Positions 4,104 through 21,264 of a DNA stretch of 21,264 nt are shown piece by piece. The DNA comes from a virus. The position numbers were made by a program, and so were the translations under genes. Below the pieces are notes generated by a model. It had not been told where the DNA came from. It saw nothing but the letters and a program-made list of their open reading frames with translations, and made no database searches. Location of the stretch: IMG/VR virus record IMGVR_UViG_3300021376_003594, positions 1-21,264 of that record. The stretch is one strand, 5' to 3'. Each line of letters starts with the position of its first letter. Position 1 is the first letter of the stretch.

Positions 4104-4337
4104 ATGTTGCATCCACTGGGCGAAGATCTTAGCGGATACAGTATATCGCAATTGGAATCCAAGTTGATTGAACTGAGAAAAAAATATTTCCAAACTGTCA
4201 ATCCTGAACTAAAACAACAAGTTGCCCTGTTCATAGATATGTACAATGAGGAACTCAAATCCAAATTAGCCCAAGAACAAATTAAAATGGCAAAAGAGAC
4301 CGGAAAAGATCTTGACAATTTGATCAATATTGATTAA
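4104..4337 (+). CDS. Small conserved phage protein, helical
   Basis: 77 aa from ATG 4104, just after the preceding stop. A longer frame opens at 3996, but that start lies inside the previous gene, and MLHPLGEDLSGYSISQLESK is the natural N-terminus. The protein is almost entirely charged helix (LESKLIELRKKYFQT...QVALFIDMYNEELKSKLAQEQIKMAKE). Short 'HPLG.D......QLE.K...L..KY' proteins sit near structural genes in marine T4-like phages, in my recollection. No function can be assigned; a small chaperone or virion assembly role is possible. Confidence 0.6.
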   Translation: MLHPLGEDLSGYSISQLESKLIELRKKYFQTVNPELKQQVALFIDMYNEELKSKLAQEQIKMAKETGKDLDNLINID

Positions 4338-4340
4338 AAT
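4312..4340 (+). promoter_or_regulatory. Strong sigma70-like promoter, near-leaderless for the 4350 gene
   Basis: TTGACA (4312-4317), a 17-base spacer and TAAAAT (4335-4340) form an almost perfect sigma70 promoter. The predicted start is about 4347, three bases before ATG 4350. It lies inside the last codons of the 4104 gene. The spacer holds a perfect 12-bp palindrome directly next to the -10 element. Confidence 0.65.
4323..4334 (+). repeat. 12-bp palindrome ATCAATATTGAT within promoter spacer
   Basis: ATCAATATTGAT equals its own reverse complement and occupies the -35/-10 spacer of the promoter at 4312-4340, abutting the -10 element. This is a classic position for an operator. It also encodes the end of the upstream protein (..INID), so chance is possible. 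Confidence 0.4.
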
Positions 4341-4349
4341 AGTGTGTAA

Positions 4350-4871
4350 ATGCGCACAGATTCTTTGGGTATTCCTATATTCGATTATGACGATGCTGTG
4401 AACCTCATCTACAGAGGTCAATCATCACTGCTGCCACACTTGCTCTTTGAAAAACATCAGGTGATAGATCAATTCAATAGATCGGCTGAAGATTTGTCTG
4501 CCGATGTAGAATTAAAAAGCTACACACCTTTAGATGTCAATCAAAAAGAATTTGATTCATTGCTGCAACAAACTTGGTTTATGCCAGACAGGGCAAAAAT
4601 ATTTGATATTGAAACTTATGTGAAACAAATCACTCCAAAAAATGCAACAGCACAGCAGAGAGTGAATGAAGAACTGGCAGCATTTCGCCAACACAACATG
4701 ATAGATGTGTTGAAGTTTCTACATTATCTGGTGGAAACACTGAGAAAACATCAAATCACTTGGGGAGTGGGCAGGGGCAGTTCTGTGGCCAGCTATGTGC
4801 TGTATCTTTTGGGGGTACACAGAATAGATTCCATTCAATATCAGCTGGATTGGCGAGAGTTCCTAAGATAA
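4350..4871 (+). CDS. DNA polymerase III alpha-like fragment lacking the catalytic aspartates
   Basis: 173 aa. Residues ~105-173 resemble the palm-entry segment of bacterial DnaE/PolC: RVNEELAAFRQHNMIDVLKF, then ITWGVGRGSSVASYVLYLLG, then HRIDSIQYQLDWREFLR. Bacterial DnaE has '(V)GPGRGS..GSLVAYALGITDLDP..[23 protein letters not shown]' at this point. The glycine-serine motif, which contacts the incoming nucleotide in C-family polymerases, is intact. The protein ends exactly before the segment with the metal-binding Asp pair, so it cannot be a polymerase alone. The first ~100 residues are not recognisable. It has its own sigma70-like promoter and lies upstream of the clamp loader, which suggests a replication-linked early gene. 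It could be a decoy, nucleotide sensor or regulator. Confidence 0.6.
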   Translation: MRTDSLGIPIFDYDDAVNLIYRGQSSLLPHLLFEKHQVIDQFNRSAEDLSADVELKSYTPLDVNQKEFDSLLQQTWFMPDRAKIFDIETYVKQITPKNATAQQRVNEELAAFRQHNMIDVLKFLHYLVETLRKHQITWGVGRGSSVASYVLYLLGVHRIDSIQYQLDWREFLR

Positions 4872-5193: not shown

Positions 5194-5562
5194 ATGATAC
5201 TCTACAAGACCCTTGAAACAGATATTATACCTGTGGGTGATAGAGTATTGGTGTCTGACATGAACTTTGGTGAAGTGCAGACAAAAGGTGGCATCTTGCT
5301 TTTAGATGATAACATGCAGAATCACGGTATCAAACCTAGATGGGCCAAAGTGTATGCCAAAGGACCTCGCAACAAAGAGGATTATCAAGTGGGAGATTGG
5401 ATCTACATCGAACACGCTAGATGGACCAGAGCAGTCAACATCAAAAAAGGTGATCAAATATTGGCCATTAGAATGGTGGATCCGGAATTCATATTGATGA
5501 TGGGCAAAGAGAAGCCAAAAGATTGGTACTACAACAAGTTGGCCATGGTGAATAAGTCTTGA
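5194..5562 (+). CDS. GroES/Cpn10-like co-chaperonin
   Basis: 122 aa, longer than bacterial GroES (about 95) and close to T4 gp31 (111). Visible family features are the N-terminal strand IIPVGDRVLVSDMN, the mobile-loop/roof region EVQTKGGILLLDDN (compare GroES ..SAGGIVL), then WAKVYAKGP and YQVGDWIYIEHARWTRAVNI, and KKGDQILAIRMVDPEFILMM (the GroES 'D...I' C-terminal strand). It should cap the host GroEL ring to fold phage proteins, as gp31 does for the major capsid protein in T4. No GroEL gene is in the window. The C-terminal ~20 residues (PKDWYYNKLAMVNKS) are an extension of unknown role. The TGA stop lies inside the -35 element of the next promoter. Confidence 0.8.
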   Translation: MILYKTLETDIIPVGDRVLVSDMNFGEVQTKGGILLLDDNMQNHGIKPRWAKVYAKGPRNKEDYQVGDWIYIEHARWTRAVNIKKGDQILAIRMVDPEFILMMGKEKPKDWYYNKLAMVNKS

Positions 5563-5587
5563 CTTTCGGCGTGCTTTGTCATATACT
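5559..5587 (+). promoter_or_regulatory. Sigma70-like promoter, leaderless for the 5594 gene
   Basis: TTGACT (5559-5564), a 17-base spacer and TATACT (5582-5587). The predicted start is about 5594, the A of the next ATG. No Shine-Dalgarno sequence is present. It probably also drives the clamp loader and downstream genes. Confidence 0.65.
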
Positions 5588-5593
5588 GACAGC

Positions 5594-5761
5594 ATGAAAT
5601 TTCCTGAAAACAGAATTAAAGGAGTTAATAACACAGGATTGGTAGGAATAGCGCTGATGCTGTGTCACATCACAGGATATCTCAATCATTGGACATGGGC
5701 TTTGTTGTATGTGCCACTCATATTGAGTGCCATAGGACAAGAATATCTCCACAGAGACTAG
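5594..5761 (+). CDS. Small two-helix membrane protein
   Basis: 55 aa from ATG 5594. A TTG 18 bases upstream is possible, but it lies within the promoter and would not be transcribed from it. Two hydrophobic segments (about NTGLVGIALMLCHITGYL and WTWALLYVPLILSAIGQEYL) are linked by a short N/H turn, typical of a small inner-membrane protein. The N-terminus (MKFPENRIKGV) is basic and probably cytoplasmic. Its own promoter and place at the head of the clamp-loader operon suggest early expression. Function unknown: host-membrane modification, superinfection exclusion or a holin-like role are possible but unsupported. Confidence 0.6.
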   Translation: MKFPENRIKGVNNTGLVGIALMLCHITGYLNHWTWALLYVPLILSAIGQEYLHRD

Positions 5762-11723: not shown

Positions 11724-11753
11724 TTGACTAATTCTGAATAATTATTATATATT
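11724..11753 (+). promoter_or_regulatory. Sigma70-like promoter, leaderless for dnaJ
   Basis: TTGACT (11724-11729) is followed at 16 bp by TATATA or at 18 bp by TATATT (11748-11753). Either choice places the start within a base of ATG 11759. There is no Shine-Dalgarno sequence. The promoter sits in the 39-base gap after the membrane-protein stop and probably opens the dnaJ-deformylase operon. Confidence 0.6.
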
Positions 11754-11758
11754 ACTAT

Positions 11759-12610
11759 ATGGATCCATATAAAGTCCTAGGCGTGCCAAAAAACGCAGAT
11801 GAAAAAGAGCTCAAGAAGGCTTTTAAAACAAAGGCTATGAAATATCATCCTGACAGGGGTGGTGATGAAAGTAAATTCAAAGAAATTAATGAAGCCTATG
11901 ACATATTGAAAGATCCTCAAAAAAAAGCTGCCTATGATAGATATGGCACTGCTAATCCGAACATGGGTGGAGGGCCAGGCTTTGATTTTAATTTTAATGG
12001 CGATATCAATGACATATTCAACAACTTCTTTGGAGGTGGTCCATTTCAAAGAAACACATACAGATCAAAGCCTCGAAATGCAGATATTAACATAGAGACC
12101 ACTCTGGATCTTGAAGATGTGCAGAGCGGCAAGTCTCTTATTGCCAGCTATAGACTGCCCAACGGTCGTCAAGAAAGTGTGAACATAGATATTCCACCTG
12201 GGGTAGAGCATAACAATATAATAAAATTTTCAGGATTAGGCAGTGACTCAGTGCATAATGCACCTAGAGGAGATCTATTGCTGAAAGTTAAAATATTAAA
12301 ACACAAATTATGGGACAGAGATGGAGCTAATTTATACACCACTGTGCGTGTGAGTGTATTGGATCTTATGTTAGGTTGCAAAGCGGAAATTAAAACATTG
12401 TCAGGTAAAAATCTATCCATCACAGTGCCCAAAGGCACGCAATCCGGCACAGTGTTCAATCTACCTGAGCAGGGATTACCATATGTGCATAATAGAAATA
12501 TGTTTGGCAGTATCTTTATCACTGTGGCAGGCGTCACTCCTAAACTGCAGGATCAAAAAATTCTTGCACGCATAGAAAGTATCAAAAATGAAATTGATAA
12601 TGCATCCTAA
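11759..12610 (+). CDS. dnaJ: DnaJ/CbpA-type J-domain co-chaperone
   Basis: 283 aa. The J domain (about 1-62) has the HPD motif at 30-32 (KYHPDRGG) and the helix EINEAYDILKDPQKKAAYDR. A Gly/Phe-rich linker follows (about 66-95, MGGGPGFDFNFNGDINDIFN, FFGGGPF). Then two C-terminal client-binding beta domains follow (about 105-280: LDLEDVQSGKSLIASYRLPN, IDIPPGVEHNNIIKF, GDLLLKVKILKHKLWDRDGA). There is no CxxCxGxG zinc region, so it is a class B (CbpA-like) J protein. It would recruit and stimulate host DnaK; no dnaK is in the window. A leaderless promoter precedes it. It overlaps the deformylase gene by 23 bases. Confidence 0.9.
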   Translation: MDPYKVLGVPKNADEKELKKAFKTKAMKYHPDRGGDESKFKEINEAYDILKDPQKKAAYDRYGTANPNMGGGPGFDFNFNGDINDIFNNFFGGGPFQRNTYRSKPRNADINIETTLDLEDVQSGKSLIASYRLPNGRQESVNIDIPPGVEHNNIIKFSGLGSDSVHNAPRGDLLLKVKILKHKLWDRDGANLYTTVRVSVLDLMLGCKAEIKTLSGKNLSITVPKGTQSGTVFNLPEQGLPYVHNRNMFGSIFITVAGVTPKLQDQKILARIESIKNEIDNAS

Positions 12611-13076
12611 CCATTGGCTGGATCAGCCCGTGGCGGATTTTGATTTCACCAAATTAGATGCAAAACACATCTCACAGCAGATGATACAGGTGATGCTGAA
12701 AGAAAATGGCATAGGACTCAGTGCCAATCAGGTCGAATTGGATGCTAAAATTTTTGTAATGCAACCACAGAATAGTAACCAAAAACCAATCACTTGCATT
12801 AATCCTTGCATATTATCTGTGAGTGATGAGAGTGTTCTGATGCAGGAGGGTTGTTTGAGTTTTCCAAATCTGTTGTTGAAAATCACACGCCCGTATGCAA
12901 TCACAGTTAAATATATTGACACAGATCAAAAAGAATGTATAATAAAATTAGACGACATTGATGCTAGGATTTTTTTACATGAATTTGATCATTTGCTTGG
13001 CATCACATTTGTTAATAGAGTGAGCAAAATGAAACTGGAAATGGCCAAAAAAAAACAAAGGAAAAAATATGCCTAA
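12588..13076 (+). CDS. def: Peptide deformylase
   Basis: 162 aa from ATG 12588 (an internal ATG at 12600, giving MHPNHWLDQP, is also plausible). All three family motifs are present: GIGLSANQ (41-48), EGCLS (87-91, metal ligand Cys89) and HEFDH (131-135, two metal-binding His and the catalytic Glu). It removes the formyl group from nascent proteins. Phage-encoded deformylases are known in marine T4-like phages and some are shorter than the bacterial enzyme; this one keeps a basic C-terminal tail (KMKLEMAKKKQRKKYA). It overlaps dnaJ upstream and the next gene (8 bases), so these are co-translated. Confidence 0.93.
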   Translation: MKLIMHPNHWLDQPVADFDFTKLDAKHISQQMIQVMLKENGIGLSANQVELDAKIFVMQPQNSNQKPITCINPCILSVSDESVLMQEGCLSFPNLLLKITRPYAITVKYIDTDQKECIIKLDDIDARIFLHEFDHLLGITFVNRVSKMKLEMAKKKQRKKYA

Positions 13077-17288: not shown

Positions 17289-17618
17289 ATGAAACAAAAA
17301 GAATTCACTGCACTCACCAAAGAAAAATTAAAATTTGATATTGTAGAAGATATCTATACCTACATGCTAAATGATCAATCATTTTTTAGAAAACATTTCT
17401 TTCCGGTGGCATGCAAATACAACAGTGAAAAAGGAGTGCCTTCTGCACAACATCAAGAAGTATGGAGACCAGTAATAGACACTGCTGTGATTGAATATTT
17501 TGATAAATTTAAAATCAATGCAAGACCTGACAAGTTAATCACTGATGAGGATCGCACTAGATTGGTGTCGCTGATTCAAAAAGGACTTCAACAATTTCCC
17601 ATTAAGAATGATAAATGA
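17289..17618 (+). CDS. Conserved hypothetical phage protein
   Basis: 109 aa. All-helical by composition, with LKFDIVEDIYTYMLNDQSFF, RKHFFPVACKYNSEKG and WRPVIDTAVIEYFDKF. No known motif is recognised. It begins three bases after the preceding stop and overlaps the nucleotidyltransferase (ATGA), so it belongs to one transcription unit with 16334-18172. It may be a small partner of that enzyme, but nothing in the sequence proves this. Confidence 0.6.
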   Translation: MKQKEFTALTKEKLKFDIVEDIYTYMLNDQSFFRKHFFPVACKYNSEKGVPSAQHQEVWRPVIDTAVIEYFDKFKINARPDKLITDEDRTRLVSLIQKGLQQFPIKNDK

Positions 17619-18172
17619 GACTCACAGAATTTACACACAAGATAGCCGCATTCGCTTTTGGTAGGATGAATCCGCCCACCAAAGGGCATGAAAAACTGGT
17701 GAATACTATTTTGCAGCAAACTGGAGATCATTTTTTATTTCTTACTCACACTCAAGACAGCAAAAATAATCCGCTGAGCTTTGAAGACAAACTTAATTTT
17801 GCTAAAAAAATGTTCCCAAATGTCACTGTGGGAGACGCCAGTGTGAAAACCATTATGGATGCAATGAAAAAGTTAGAGCGTGATGGATACACTGACATCA
17901 TATATGTGGCAGGTTCAGACAGAGTGGCTCAATTTGATCAACTATTGAACAAATACAACAACAAGGAATACAAATTCAAAAGCATACGCACAGTTAATGC
18001 TGGAACTAGAGATCCAGATGCAGAAGATGTGGGTGGAGTGAGTGCCAGCAAAGCTAGACAGTATGCTCAAATGGGAGCAAGGCAAAGTTTTATCAATACC
18101 ATACCTACAGACACCAAAACTGCCACAGAACTGTACAAAAAAGTGCGTGACAATCTTAATATAACCGCATAA
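17615..18172 (+). CDS. HxGH-type nucleotidyltransferase (cytidylyl/NMN-adenylyltransferase-like)
   Basis: 185 aa. The first beta strand and nucleotide-binding loop are FAFGRMNPPTKGHEKLV (13-29), where TKGH replaces HxGH. The distal motif is VSASKAR (142-148), the counterpart of (I/V)SxT/SxxR. In between are EDKLNFAKKMFPNVTV and DGYTDIIYVAGSDRV, typical for this Rossmann-like fold. Relatives transfer AMP or CMP to NMN, pantetheine phosphate or glycerol phosphate; the substrate here cannot be told, and NAD salvage (NadM/NatV-like) is one option. The N-terminus MRLTEFTHK belongs to the short tag shared by several downstream genes. Confidence 0.8.
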   Translation: MRLTEFTHKIAAFAFGRMNPPTKGHEKLVNTILQQTGDHFLFLTHTQDSKNNPLSFEDKLNFAKKMFPNVTVGDASVKTIMDAMKKLERDGYTDIIYVAGSDRVAQFDQLLNKYNNKEYKFKSIRTVNAGTRDPDAEDVGGVSASKARQYAQMGARQSFINTIPTDTKTATELYKKVRDNLNITA

Positions 18173-18175
18173 ATA
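18168..18175 (+). promoter_or_regulatory. Late-type promoter octamer CATAAATA
   Basis: CATAAATA overlaps the TAA stop of the nucleotidyltransferase. The predicted start is about 18181, at ATG 18180, with no Shine-Dalgarno sequence; it would give a leaderless mRNA. Confidence 0.55.
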
Positions 18176-18179
18176 TTGT

Positions 18180-18398
18180 ATGGACTCAATTGCAAAACTT
18201 AAAATACTCGCCGGCATAAACAATTACAGCAATAGTATGCCCAGTGTGGAAAATATATCGCACACAGCACAGGCTTTGAAAGACAAAGAAAAAGAATTGG
18301 GTCTAAAGCCTGGTGATCCAGACTGGTTTAAATTATGGTTCAGTCTACCCTACATGACCGGATCAGTGAACAGTAAATTCAGAGGCAGAAAGAAATGA
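18180..18398 (+). CDS. Small conserved phage protein
   Basis: 72 aa. It starts MDSIAKLKILAGINNYSN and ends with KPGDPDWFKLWFSLPYMTGS then FRGRKK. I recall the 'PG...WF.LWFS.P.LTG...F.GRKK' ending from other marine phage proteins of unknown function. Leaderless start after a late-type promoter. It overlaps the next ATG by four bases (ATGA). No enzyme motif. Confidence 0.6.
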   Translation: MDSIAKLKILAGINNYSNSMPSVENISHTAQALKDKEKELGLKPGDPDWFKLWFSLPYMTGSVNSKFRGRKK

Positions 18399-19345
18399 AA
18401 TTAAGAGACATTATTTCGCAGGAAGGTTCACAGATGTCCGGCAGCATGGCTGCCAGGAAGAAGAAACTGGACATGATGAATCCAGATGAGATCAAGGCAT
18501 ATTTTCAAAATAGAGCAGATGTTGCTAAAGCAGCCAGAGGTGGAGTGGTAGCACCAGGATTTTCAGCCAAAGAACTTGCTCAAAGACAAGAATTCAGTTA
18601 TGGCAGAGAGTTTGCCAAGTCGAGACCTTACAGCAGGCATTTCGAAAGCACATTGGACGAAGGATTGAAAGATTGGTTGGCCAAGATGGCTGTGGCTGGT
18701 ATTATTGTGGGCAGCATCGCGGGAGTGGGCACTATCAATAATGCCATCAACAACAGTGTGCCTGTGATACAGGCTATGAACAAGGCTTTGGATGCAGCCA
18801 CTCAACGAGGTGATCAACAATTGATACAAAATATTAAACAGGATTTAGACACAGCAAAATATGTTTTAGATTCAGGCAAAGACCTAAACATGGTGAAACA
18901 AATGCAGGATAGATATGCAAAATTTATGCCAGCAGATTATAAACCCTCTACTCCACCTTTAAAATTTAAAGAAGGATATGGCCGATACTGGTGTTCAACT
19001 GATAAAAAATGGAAAATGCGAAAAGCACCAAAGCAAACTAGAAAAACAGAATCTGAATTGAATCAAGAAATGCAACGTACCCCCTTTAAAACAAAAATCA
19101 TGAAGAAGCTGGGAGAGCCAGTGCGACAGTATCTATCCAATAAGGAAAAGAATCAAGAATTGAAAAAGTTAGATAAACCTGAGAAAGAAGGAATTTTGGG
19201 CGCTGTGGCAGGTGGTGTGGTGGGATCAGCTGCGGGCATACCAGGCACAGTGGCGGGTGCTTATCTTGGACACAAAATTCAACAAGCAGCCAAAAATAGA
19301 AAAAATCAACAAGCCAAAGACAATCAAGTTAAGCAGAAAACTTAA
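18395..19345 (+). CDS. Glycine-zipper membrane protein, candidate internal or ejected virion protein
   Basis: 316 aa. The N-terminus MKLRDIISQEG carries the shared tag, followed by a basic, partly disordered region. At residues 87-90 LDE-G matches the T4 prohead protease rule [LI]xE|[AG]. Directly after lies a membrane segment (LAKMAVAGIIVGSIAGVGTI, about 95-115). The middle is helical and polar, then lysine-rich (KKWKMRKAPKQTRKTE). A glycine zipper sits near the end (about 266-295, GAVAGGVVGSAAGIPGTVAG), a motif of membrane-inserting and pore-forming proteins. No family is recognised. An ejected protein that inserts in the cell membrane is a reasonable hypothesis, not a demonstrated one. Confidence 0.6.
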   Translation: MKLRDIISQEGSQMSGSMAARKKKLDMMNPDEIKAYFQNRADVAKAARGGVVAPGFSAKELAQRQEFSYGREFAKSRPYSRHFESTLDEGLKDWLAKMAVAGIIVGSIAGVGTINNAINNSVPVIQAMNKALDAATQRGDQQLIQNIKQDLDTAKYVLDSGKDLNMVKQMQDRYAKFMPADYKPSTPPLKFKEGYGRYWCSTDKKWKMRKAPKQTRKTESELNQEMQRTPFKTKIMKKLGEPVRQYLSNKEKNQELKKLDKPEKEGILGAVAGGVVGSAAGIPGTVAGAYLGHKIQQAAKNRKNQQAKDNQVKQKT

Positions 19346-19349
19346 TGTT

Positions 19350-19523
19350 ATGAAAAAAAAAGCAGATTATTGTGTAAACTGCGGTCATAACAGTCATTGT
19401 GGCAAACGTCTGGAGCGTTGGGAGTATGAGAAAGTGGGCAACGTAATCAAACATCGTTGGAAAATAGAAGTGTGTAAGATCTGCTCCTGCGACCTATGTG
19501 AAGAAGGTTTCACAGAGGAGTAA
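19350..19523 (+). CDS. Small zinc-ribbon protein
   Basis: 57 aa from ATG 19350, just behind the upstream stop. Cysteine pattern: CVNCGHNSHC (8-17) and CKICSCDLC (42-50), giving two Cys knuckles and a WEYEKVGNVIKHRWKIE linker, consistent with a treble-clef or ribbon-type zinc site. A longer reading from 19212 lies inside the preceding gene in another frame and is rejected. Such small zinc proteins often bind host RNA polymerase or nucleic acid; the target here is unknown. Confidence 0.65.
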   Translation: MKKKADYCVNCGHNSHCGKRLERWEYEKVGNVIKHRWKIEVCKICSCDLCEEGFTEE

Positions 19524-19549
19524 TCCGCCATGTCAACACAGTTGATGCC

Positions 19550-20260
19550 ATGAAAATAATCGAAATAATTACCAAAAAAACATTGGTTGACTTTCACACG
19601 GAAAAGTTGCATAATGTACAGATGAAAGAAAGTAAGAATATGCCCAAAGTTTATTTGGACATGGATGGGGTGATTGCTGATTTTTTTGGTGGAGTTGAAA
19701 GATTGTATGGTGTGGATCACTGGAAACAACTCACATCGGATGTCACCAAGGATCTAAAAAAAGAAGTGATTGATCGCATATCTGGCACAGATTTCTTTGC
19801 ACATCTACCCAAATTCAGCACAGCAGATACTTTGATTGAAATTATAAAAAAATTCACAGGTGGTCAATACAGCATACTGACATCACCATTGAGAGGTGAC
19901 AATGAGAACAGTGGCTATTATAAAAAGATATGGGTGAGCAAAAATATAGTGAAGCCCGACGAAATAATTGTGACTGGTCGCAAAGAAACGTATGCCAAAA
20001 GCAACGGCACAGCCAACATATTGATAGATGACCGACCAGTGAACATTAGCAAATGGCAGGCCAAAGGAGGTTATGGCATATTGTATCAGGCCAACAAGGA
20101 CTCTGTCAGCAAGGTACAAACAGCTTTGGCACAGTATGAAAACAAAGGCAAACAACCTGCAGAAACATTTGGAGTAGGCATAATAACCAAACAAAACACC
20201 ACCAAAGATGTCAAGCCTGGTGAAATTCGCAGACAGGCTAAAAAACTAAAATTGATGTGA
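19550..20260 (+). CDS. HAD-family 5'(3')-deoxyribonucleotidase-like phosphatase, possible dual start
   Basis: Open from ATG 19550 (236 aa, MKIIEIITKK.. tag) with an in-frame ATG at 19622 (212 aa). The catalytic core begins KVYLDMDGVIADFFGG, HAD motif I with two Asp (residues 13 and 15 of the short form). Motif II is SILTSP, the motif III Lys lies in RKETYAK, and motif IV is LIDDRP. This is the NT5C-like layout for dephosphorylating deoxynucleotides, which fits phage nucleotide management. A sigma70-like promoter inside the first 24 codons would start transcription at ATG 19622. The extension would then exist only on read-through transcripts. The ~40-residue C-tail (TTKDVKPGEIRRQAKKLKLM) lies outside the HAD fold. 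Confidence 0.8.
   Translation: MKIIEIITKKTLVDFHTEKLHNVQMKESKNMPKVYLDMDGVIADFFGGVERLYGVDHWKQLTSDVTKDLKKEVIDRISGTDFFAHLPKFSTADTLIEIIKKFTGGQYSILTSPLRGDNENSGYYKKIWVSKNIVKPDEIIVTGRKETYAKSNGTANILIDDRPVNISKWQAKGGYGILYQANKDSVSKVQTALAQYENKGKQPAETFGVGIITKQNTTKDVKPGEIRRQAKKLKLM
19587..19615 (+). promoter_or_regulatory. Sigma70-like promoter inside the nucleotidase N-terminal extension
   Basis: TTGACT (19587-19592), a 17-base spacer and CATAAT (19610-19615). The predicted start is 19622, exactly the internal in-frame ATG. It has the same spacing and leaderless geometry as the promoters at 4312, 5559 and 11724. Confidence 0.55.
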
Positions 20261-20261
20261 T

Positions 20262-20579
20262 ATGAAAATTTTAGAAATTACCGAAGGCAAAAGAATACCT
20301 AGGAAAAAAGGTCAACCAGCTGGATCAAAAAAACACAGTGATTTGTACACAGATGAAAATCCCAAAGGTACCATACATGGTCTAGGTTTTAAAGATGAAG
20401 CAGCAGCACGTGCTTCTGTATCCAAGATTCGTCGCAGTGGCAGATCACATGCACACAAAATACAAGCAGCAGTGGCCATGGAACAGCGAGCAAAGGCAGC
20501 AGGCAAAGCAGCAGCCGCAGCAGTGTACAGACGTTACATAAATAGAATGAAGAAGCGCACAAAAGCAATGAACAAATGA
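20262..20579 (+). CDS. Very basic small protein with T4-like capsid-targeting tag, candidate internal protein
   Basis: 105 aa. The N-terminus MKILEITEGKRIPRKKG: the first eight residues end in ITE followed by G, matching the T4 prohead protease cleavage rule [LI]xE|[AG] and resembling the T4 internal-protein targeting sequence MKTYQEFIAE|A. The rest is strongly basic (KKHSDLYTDENPKGTIHGLG; SKIRRSGRSHAHKIQAAVAM; YRRYINRMKKRTKAMNK), ideal for DNA contact. I recall related 'SDLYTDENPKGTIHGL....SHAHKIQAA.AM.QRA' proteins in cyanophages, function unknown. Overlaps the next gene by four bases (ATGA). Confidence 0.6.
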   Translation: MKILEITEGKRIPRKKGQPAGSKKHSDLYTDENPKGTIHGLGFKDEAAARASVSKIRRSGRSHAHKIQAAVAMEQRAKAAGKAAAAAVYRRYINRMKKRTKAMNK

Positions 20580-20722
20580 AAATCAAAGAAATTTTATACA
20601 CTAAAAAATATGTGCATCCTGATGTGGAGAAGATACTGGATCGCAACGAAAAAAGAGCAAAAGCCCGCAAATCAAAAATGACCATGGGCTTCCCCATGGG
20701 ATATCCTTACAGAGTGAGATAA
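20576..20722 (+). CDS. Small basic protein with shared N-terminal tag
   Basis: 48 aa: MKIKEILYTKKYVHPDVEKI, then LDRNEKRAKARKSKM and TMGFPMGYPYRVR. It overlaps the previous stop (ATGA), so translation is coupled. The tag MKIKEI matches its neighbours. The middle is a basic helix and the end is Gly/Pro/Tyr-rich. No known family; its short length and charge fit a packaged or DNA-associated peptide. Confidence 0.55.
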   Translation: MKIKEILYTKKYVHPDVEKILDRNEKRAKARKSKMTMGFPMGYPYRVR

Positions 20723-20995: not shown

Positions 20996-21264
20996 ATGAA
21001 GATAATTGACGTGGTGTCAGACTGGATCATAATGCCACAAACCATCAAGCCACAGGGTTTGATTCATAAAAAAGGTTATGGTCCCAATAACAGATTCGGA
21101 TTTCGCAACGTGGGCAACAATCGTGCCAATGAAAATTTAACTCTCACAGCCGATCAATTAAAACAATTACAAACAGAATATACACCTTACAAAGATAGAG
21201 CATTGCCTGCTGTGAAAGGTCACGAATTACGTCAATTCTTAAAATCTTTATCAGATGAAGATTT
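20996..21264 (+). CDS. Hypothetical protein with shared N-terminal tag, partial at window end
   Basis: Starts at ATG 20996 four bases after the preceding stop and runs off the right edge with 89 residues visible. N-terminus MKIIDVVSDWIMPQTIKPQG, then GLIHKKGYGPNNRFGFRNVG and LTLTADQLKQLQTEY, ending FLKSLSDED. The tag MKIIDVV matches the M[KR][IL]xx[IVF] start of neighbouring genes. No known motif; the C-terminus is not available. Confidence 0.55.
   Translation, partial: MKIIDVVSDWIIMPQTIKPQGLIHKKGYGPNNRFGFRNVGNNRANENLTLTADQLKQLQTEYTPYKDRALPAVKGHELRQFLKSLSDED

Follow-up and report, generated by a model that had tools for sequence, protein, structure and literature searches.

The nucleotidase gene of an uncultured T4-related phage holds, within its own coding sequence, a conserved sigma70-type promoter followed by an in-frame internal ATG. 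On balance, we read the gene as one that would give two nested products: an early, untagged enzyme translated from a leaderless mRNA, and a late, tagged form that is probably directed to the phage head. The element is conserved in three gene architectures (with the gene's own tag, within a gene fusion and beside an untagged stand-alone gene), and within the gene, conservation of synonymous sites is highest at the element, exceeding protein constraint. Comparison of relatives makes it quite likely that the embedded promoter, with its internal start, is functional.

A probable nested start within a tagged nucleotidase gene

The window analysed here, a 21,264-base virus record from a T4-related phage, shares its gene order around the clamp loader, PhoH, DnaJ and ClpA genes with Pseudomonas phage PA5oct. 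The nucleotidase ORF (Table 1) matches PF06941 NT5C over residues 34-181 (4.4e-6; 27.1 bits against a cut-off of 24.8) and the 5'-3' deoxyribonucleotidase family phrog_2643 (7.1e-27); DMDG, in agreement with the HAD DxDG motif, and DDRP/DDKP are invariant in the alignment. Since the conserved domain starts near residue 34, the first 24-30 residues constitute an extension. All indels in this extension among close relatives are multiples of three, so it is genuinely coding; together with the conserved tag, this pattern ruled out an annotation artefact. In relatives, other ORFs of the tagged cluster carry the nucleotidase's C-terminal tail as a module of its own, and partial matches to it were found in G025, G017, G018, G020, G009, G010 and G026.

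Between ATG 19550 and the in-frame ATG 19622 (codon 25) lie 72 nt, or 24 codons. The embedded promoter, TTGACT-17-CATAAT (19587-19615), spans codons 13-22, with a 17-nt spacer and 10 of 12 hexamer positions matched. Only GTACAG separates its -10 hexamer from ATG 19622, which places the predicted +1 on the A of that ATG; this 6-nt gap coincides with the genome-wide leaderless peak. Both structural claims of the original prediction, namely that the 24-codon extension carries a shared tag and that it contains a promoter with a predicted start exactly at the internal ATG, are borne out. A second ATG at 19640 was ruled out as the main internal start, conservation being limited to the ATG at 19622.

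The window's own -10 is imperfect, with C at the first position, and sigma70-like sites are not enriched in the window (59 found vs 55.1 +/- 7.3 in shuffles). A claim of significance from the window alone, where the promoter is at chance level, was dropped; its significance derives from conservation in relatives.

Table 1. Features of the nucleotidase gene, its surroundings and comparison sites in the window
Feature	Position	Strand	Remarks
Long form: tagged 5'(3')-deoxyribonucleotidase, 236 aa	19550..20260	+	PF06941 and phrog_2643
24-codon coding extension, holding tag and promoter	19550..19621	+	3-nt indels only in close relatives; aligns across relatives
Shared N-terminal tag MKIIEI	19550..19567	+	Pattern in 6/35 window ORFs; kept in relatives
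-35 hexamer TTGACT of embedded promoter	19587..19592	+	TTG (first three bases) kept in 17/17 relatives
-10 hexamer CATAAT of embedded promoter	19610..19615	+	TATAAT in most relatives
Short form: ORF of 212 aa, predicted leaderless, with the whole nucleotidase domain	19622..20260	+	ATG in 17/17 representative relatives
C-terminal tail (..VGIITKQNTTKDVKPGEIRRQAKKLKLM) of nucleotidase	20141..20257	+	Separate module on other ORFs of relatives
GAGGAG and mini-ORF MSTQLMP* (19530-19553), stop overlapping ATG 19550 (ATGA)	19516..19553	+	
CATAAATA, T4-late-type motif 4 nt before ATG 18180	18168..18175	+	Nearest late-type promoter upstream of long form
Tagged cytidylyltransferase (MRLTEFTHK..), fused with the nucleotidase in other phages	17615..18172	+	PF01467 5.3e-5, phrog_3041 1.2e-51
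Tagged ORF MKLRDIISQEG..	18395..19345	+	
Tagged ORF MKILEITEGKR..	20262..20579	+	
Tagged ORF MKIKEILYTKK..	20576..20722	+	
Tagged ORF MKIIDVVSDW..	20996..21264	+	Runs past window end
Comparison: TTGACT-17-TATACT, 6 nt, ATG 5594	5559..5596	+	Leaderless-type early start
Comparison: TTGACT-18-TATATT, 5 nt, ATG 11759	11724..11761	+	DnaJ-like
Comparison: TTGACA-17-TAAAAT, 9 nt, ATG 4350	4312..4352	+	

The element persists through gene fusion and splitting

The own-tag architecture occurs in the window, L002-L011, L018-L022 and L028. Tag, promoter and ATG are kept together in ten tagged relatives at about 75% identity, with 3-nt indels only, while a second group (L018-L022, L028) has MR[IL]xx[LI] tags and, within the ORF, a perfect TTGACA-17-TATAAT. 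The members of a third group (L023-L027, L029-L031, L090) carry the nucleotidase as a C-terminal fusion to a tagged cytidylyltransferase, a homologue of the gene at 17615, giving ORFs of about 394-398 aa; here the fusion linker holds TTGAC[GA]/TTGCA[AG]-17-TATAAT and then ATG. The tag takes the forms MKI[TA]EI and MR[ILV][LS][DE][LI] in relatives. Finally, the homologous nucleotidase of the Methylophilales phage Melnitz is an untagged stand-alone gene, with a strong sigma70 promoter, TTGACT-17-TATAAT, just upstream, ending 8 nt before the first ATG. As read from these sequences, the embedded promoter has survived both fusion and splitting of the gene.

Throughout 17 representative relatives the internal ATG and the 17-nt spacer are invariant, and 9-12 of the 12 hexamer positions match in every case. 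A consensus of the 30-nt element retrieved 32 IMG/VR stretches, all of them nucleotidase ORFs, either tagged or fused, and 31 of these keep an ATG at 6 nt. In L208, a fused relative, the promoter element is kept and the internal ATG is replaced by ATA. The promoter could instead serve downstream genes rather than the short nucleotidase, for in the window the downstream tagged ORFs follow closely and have no promoter of their own; however, the next genes in G018 possess their own ATAAATA promoters, and the placing of the ATG at the predicted +1 in all representatives and nearly all pattern matches speaks against such a role, which we consider exceedingly improbable.

The original prediction named loss of the promoter in relatives with the extension as evidence against it, and the comparison comes out largely in its favour. 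Promoter and ATG are conserved in the tagged and fused groups, whereas L012 and L032 lack both, with the tag-like start alone remaining. When a stand-alone second nucleotidase that might compensate in L012 and L032 was looked for, merely fragmentary C-tail matches were found. The homologous nucleotidase of the Pelagibacter phage HTVC008M, which lies in a cytidyltransferase cluster, likewise has a tag-like start and no embedded promoter. Of the two states brought together in the window's gene, Melnitz and HTVC008M each show one.

Selection on the DNA sequence of the element

In a codon alignment of the 17 representatives, with synonymous analysis scaled to pair divergence, same-residue codon identity was 0.48 over the rest of the gene. 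At the element three codons reached 1.00, namely the Val/Ile/Leu codon ending in TT, Leu TTG (expected 0.23) and Asn AAT; Tyr TAT stood at 0.88 (TTG in 17/17, AAT in 16/17 and TAT in 15/17 sequences). TTG-TAT-AAT is the top 3-codon window for synonymous conservation among the 121 in the gene, and the spacer between -35 and -10 is likewise synonymously conserved. A codon-shuffle null that preserves protein and codon usage gave a summed score of 84 vs 69.9 +/- 2.6 for eight cluster representatives; because this null treats the sequences as independent, the synonymous analysis is the better evidence. Selection on the promoter together with its ATG is, on these comparisons, well supported.

The hexamers might nevertheless be a by-product of the linker peptide [VI]D..NNKKLYNEDM, with no promoter function and the long protein as the sole product. 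Single-sequence codon-shuffle tests, mostly not significant (P 0.015-0.49; mostly above 0.02), are consistent with this, as is the occurrence in the same genomes of promoter look-alikes dictated by protein motifs. Indeed, two such in-gene sequences elsewhere in the clade, in a HAD motif (IDIDNTICYN) and in a deformylase (..KECIIK), are both explained by protein constraint, so hexamers alone are no proof of a promoter. Against a peptide origin, the excess of synonymous conservation falls exactly on the element after correction for relatedness, an Asp -> Ala change in the -35 region of relatives leaves TTG in place, the linker is dispensable, being absent from L012 and L032, and Melnitz has a non-coding counterpart. 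We regard this explanation as improbable and favour a functional promoter.

The look-alikes deserve mention in their own right. The small HAD-type protein (G013:13376-13709, G001:87856-88147) has TTGACA-17-TATAAT running through its catalytic motif and offers a useful negative control. A perfect TTGACA-16-TATAAT lies within the deformylase-like gene at 12916-12943 of the window, and likewise in G001 and G013; it is probably dictated by the protein sequence, or else drives the Clp gene that follows. In Melnitz (W01, ~72010-72050), TTGACA-17-TATACT within a 69-aa ORF precedes an in-frame ATG by 6 nt, a possible second embedded leaderless start.

Many relatives (L002, L018-L022, L024 and others) carry an inverted repeat, ACAAC-N5-GTTGT, in the promoter spacer, which could act as an operator or RNA hairpin. 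Selection for such a structure, rather than for initiation at the ATG, would fit the synonymous conservation of the spacer and the predicted hairpins of L020 and L002 (-8.6 to -10.6 kcal/mol). The palindrome shows no compensatory changes, however, and is broken in three representatives (the window, L023 and L027) where hexamers, spacing and ATG are all kept; it was rejected as a universal selected feature, and we think it highly unlikely that it accounts for the element.

Leaderless-type starts and promoter classes across the clade

Promoters were counted in the window together with G001, G025, G018, G017 and G013, taking sigma70 sites with at least 11 of 12 matches. The first ATG lies 5-8 nt past the -10 in 22 of 72 such sites, at exactly 6 nt in 13 of them (background 0.077; P 1.2e-8 vs -10-like sites without a -35). 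For the late-type motif ATAAATA, 43 of 102 sites have an ATG 5-7 nt further on, against 3-12% for control A+T-rich 7-mers. The clade, by these counts, uses leaderless-type starts with promoters of the sigma70 type as well as the ATAAATA type. HTVC008M has the pattern for ATAAATA (8/18) and Melnitz has it weakly; the leaderless spacing was not seen in segments of PA5oct, T4 and Atu_ph07. Of the comparison sites in Table 1, that at ATG 5594 has a homologue in G001 (TTGACA-17-TATACT, 6 nt, ATG), and the DnaJ-like arrangement recurs in G013, G018, G025 and G017.

Consistent with T4-type late promoters, the ATAAATA class is a TATAAATA-like element, with ATAAATA enriched upstream of ORFs and structural genes downstream. 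Its leaderless genes include baseplate wedge subunits and the tail tube, while the sigma70-leaderless genes of G025 comprise DNA primase, dNMP kinase, NUDIX hydrolase and GTP cyclohydrolase, among others. This division between replication or nucleotide genes and structural genes makes the embedded element early-class by form, and the cluster around it bears, in its sequence, late-type motifs. The original prediction of an early and a late form agrees with these gene classes; the contrasts between tag and promoter class, by comparison, are borderline, ATAAATA standing just upstream of 8/41 tagged vs 63/628 untagged ORFs (P 0.066) and a sigma70 site at the start of 0/41 vs 53/628 (P 0.066). An early/late reading of the nested starts appears reasonable, and we lean towards a corresponding split of the two forms.

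The shared tag and its possible meaning

The tag pattern M[KR..]xx[ED][ILFV..] occurs in 6 of 35 window ORFs, where 0.2 would be expected after shuffling of N-termini, and in related genomes 5-11 times against 0.5-1.5 expected. In the 17.6-21.3 kb cluster the other tagged starts are MRLTEF, MKLRDI, MKILEI, MKIKEI and MKIIDV. The overlap of a mini-ORF stop with ATG 19550 in the window, and of the upstream gene's TAA with the long-form start in close relatives (TAATG), suggests coupled translation, and the long form is probably translated by coupling to the preceding ORF.

A short N-terminal sequence common to several otherwise unrelated proteins is what capsid targeting in T4 looks like. T4 head propeptides are capsid-targeting sequences that are cut after Glu (PMC9026906, PMC5694885), and the starts of T4 gp24 (MAKINELLRE) and Alt.-1 (MELITELF) resemble the clade tag. 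Small tagged proteins of the clade begin MKIRDIIRE-VASVGSTSAGNIA, MRIRDIISE-VASAGATSSGSIA and MKINEIIIRRINNE-QATAGATAAGNIA, and the clade's major head protein (G025; phrog_138, 1.6e-101) has YLSE-QATAGATSAGNVA or YLSE-QATAGATSAGNVATLN close to the N-terminus, at the place expected for a gp23-type cut. The sequence (Q/V/T)A(T/S)AGATSAGNIA, a likely prohead-protease site, is common to a tagged small protein and the N-terminal region of the major head protein (L133:781-1059 (G025), G018:18153-18422, G013:10555-10782, L128:1333-2499). A T4-type prohead protease, PF03420, is present in G025 and Melnitz; the profile search of shorter fragments gave no match, which is uninformative since these are fragments. 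G025 also has a tagged ORF of 80 aa flanked by its portal and protease genes. The T4-like N-termini, the copied head-protein site and this ORF make it most likely that the tag is a head address, although we put the chance that the tag directs its protein to the head as about even.

In several tagged proteins (MKIRDIIRE, MRIRDIISE) the tag ends in an [ILV]xE-type site; the nucleotidase has IIE at residues 3-5 only and no Glu at residues 8-10, the expected position of T4-type cleavage. This want of a clear cleavage Glu past the tag would suit another reading, in which promoter and short enzyme are real and the tag is a docking or regulatory peptide of the late gene cluster, for example of a nucleotide-enzyme complex; so would the fusion of the nucleotidase to, or its position beside, another nucleotide enzyme. 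The resemblance to gp24/Alt-type N-termini, the copying of the head protein's likely cleavage site within the tagged family and the 80-aa ORF in G025 weigh against a docking tag, which is a possible but less likely alternative to a head address.

Discussion

The sequence comparisons are compatible with the following course of events. Early in infection, host sigma70 RNA polymerase would act at the embedded promoter, as suggested by its consensus, spacing and selection, and the transcript would start at or within a few nucleotides of ATG 19622. This leaderless mRNA would give an untagged nucleotidase acting in the cell on deoxynucleotides. Later, the tagged cluster may be transcribed from ATAAATA-type late promoters, and the long ORF read from ATG 19550 to give the tagged enzyme. 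With less certainty, the tag would be a T4-like capsid-targeting propeptide that brings the long form into the prohead, from which it might perhaps be ejected into the next host. The original interpretation is supported in part, and the contrast that it drew between cytoplasmic and tagged forms is better put as one between an untagged early form and a probably head-directed late form. It is tempting to speculate, and we do so tentatively, that two leaderless promoter classes set the fate of the enzyme: a free nucleotidase now, or a head-addressed copy that is packaged for ejection into the next host.

Partial precedents exist. In Shigella, VirF21 is made from the leaderless mRNA of a gene-internal promoter (PMC5101355), and the VirF30/VirF21 pair resembles the arrangement proposed here in that such a promoter yields a shorter product without the N-terminus; the mRNA 5' end 1-2 nt from the internal in-frame ATG (PMC5101355) recalls the start predicted here. 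Unlike here, VirF is a regulator encoded by a single bacterial gene, with neither early/late phage timing nor a tag, and differential translation also yields both forms. In T4, gp17', gp21' and gp26' (annotated, AF158101) are N-terminally shortened proteins arising from internal transcription or in-frame starts, as predicted here; they are not described as leaderless in AF158101, the removed N-terminus is no shared tag and, unlike the nucleotidase gene, they form no fused, tagged and stand-alone series. The T4 internal-protein capsid targeting sequence and the gp24 and Alt propeptides (PMC9026906, PMC3012670) provide a short MK../K-I-x-E-[LI]-like address on otherwise unrelated proteins, and a T4-type protease is encoded in the clade as well. 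The clade differs in that its tagged candidates include metabolic enzymes and in that the nucleotidase is without an obvious site past the tag. We found no description of such an architecture in the open-access literature on leaderless early/late phage transcripts. What sets the present gene apart is the combination of a predicted early leaderless start with a putative address tag lying upstream of it, kept through gene fusion and splitting.

The gene offers a concrete example of how the placing of a promoter within a coding sequence would determine if a protein is made with an address tag. In this group of uncultured T4-related phages, moreover, the findings point to leaderless mRNAs as the usual product of early and late promoters alike, an architecture that affects start-codon annotation in the clade. 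Furthermore, the tag together with the protease-site motif provides a marker for finding proteins that are possibly packaged in phage heads.
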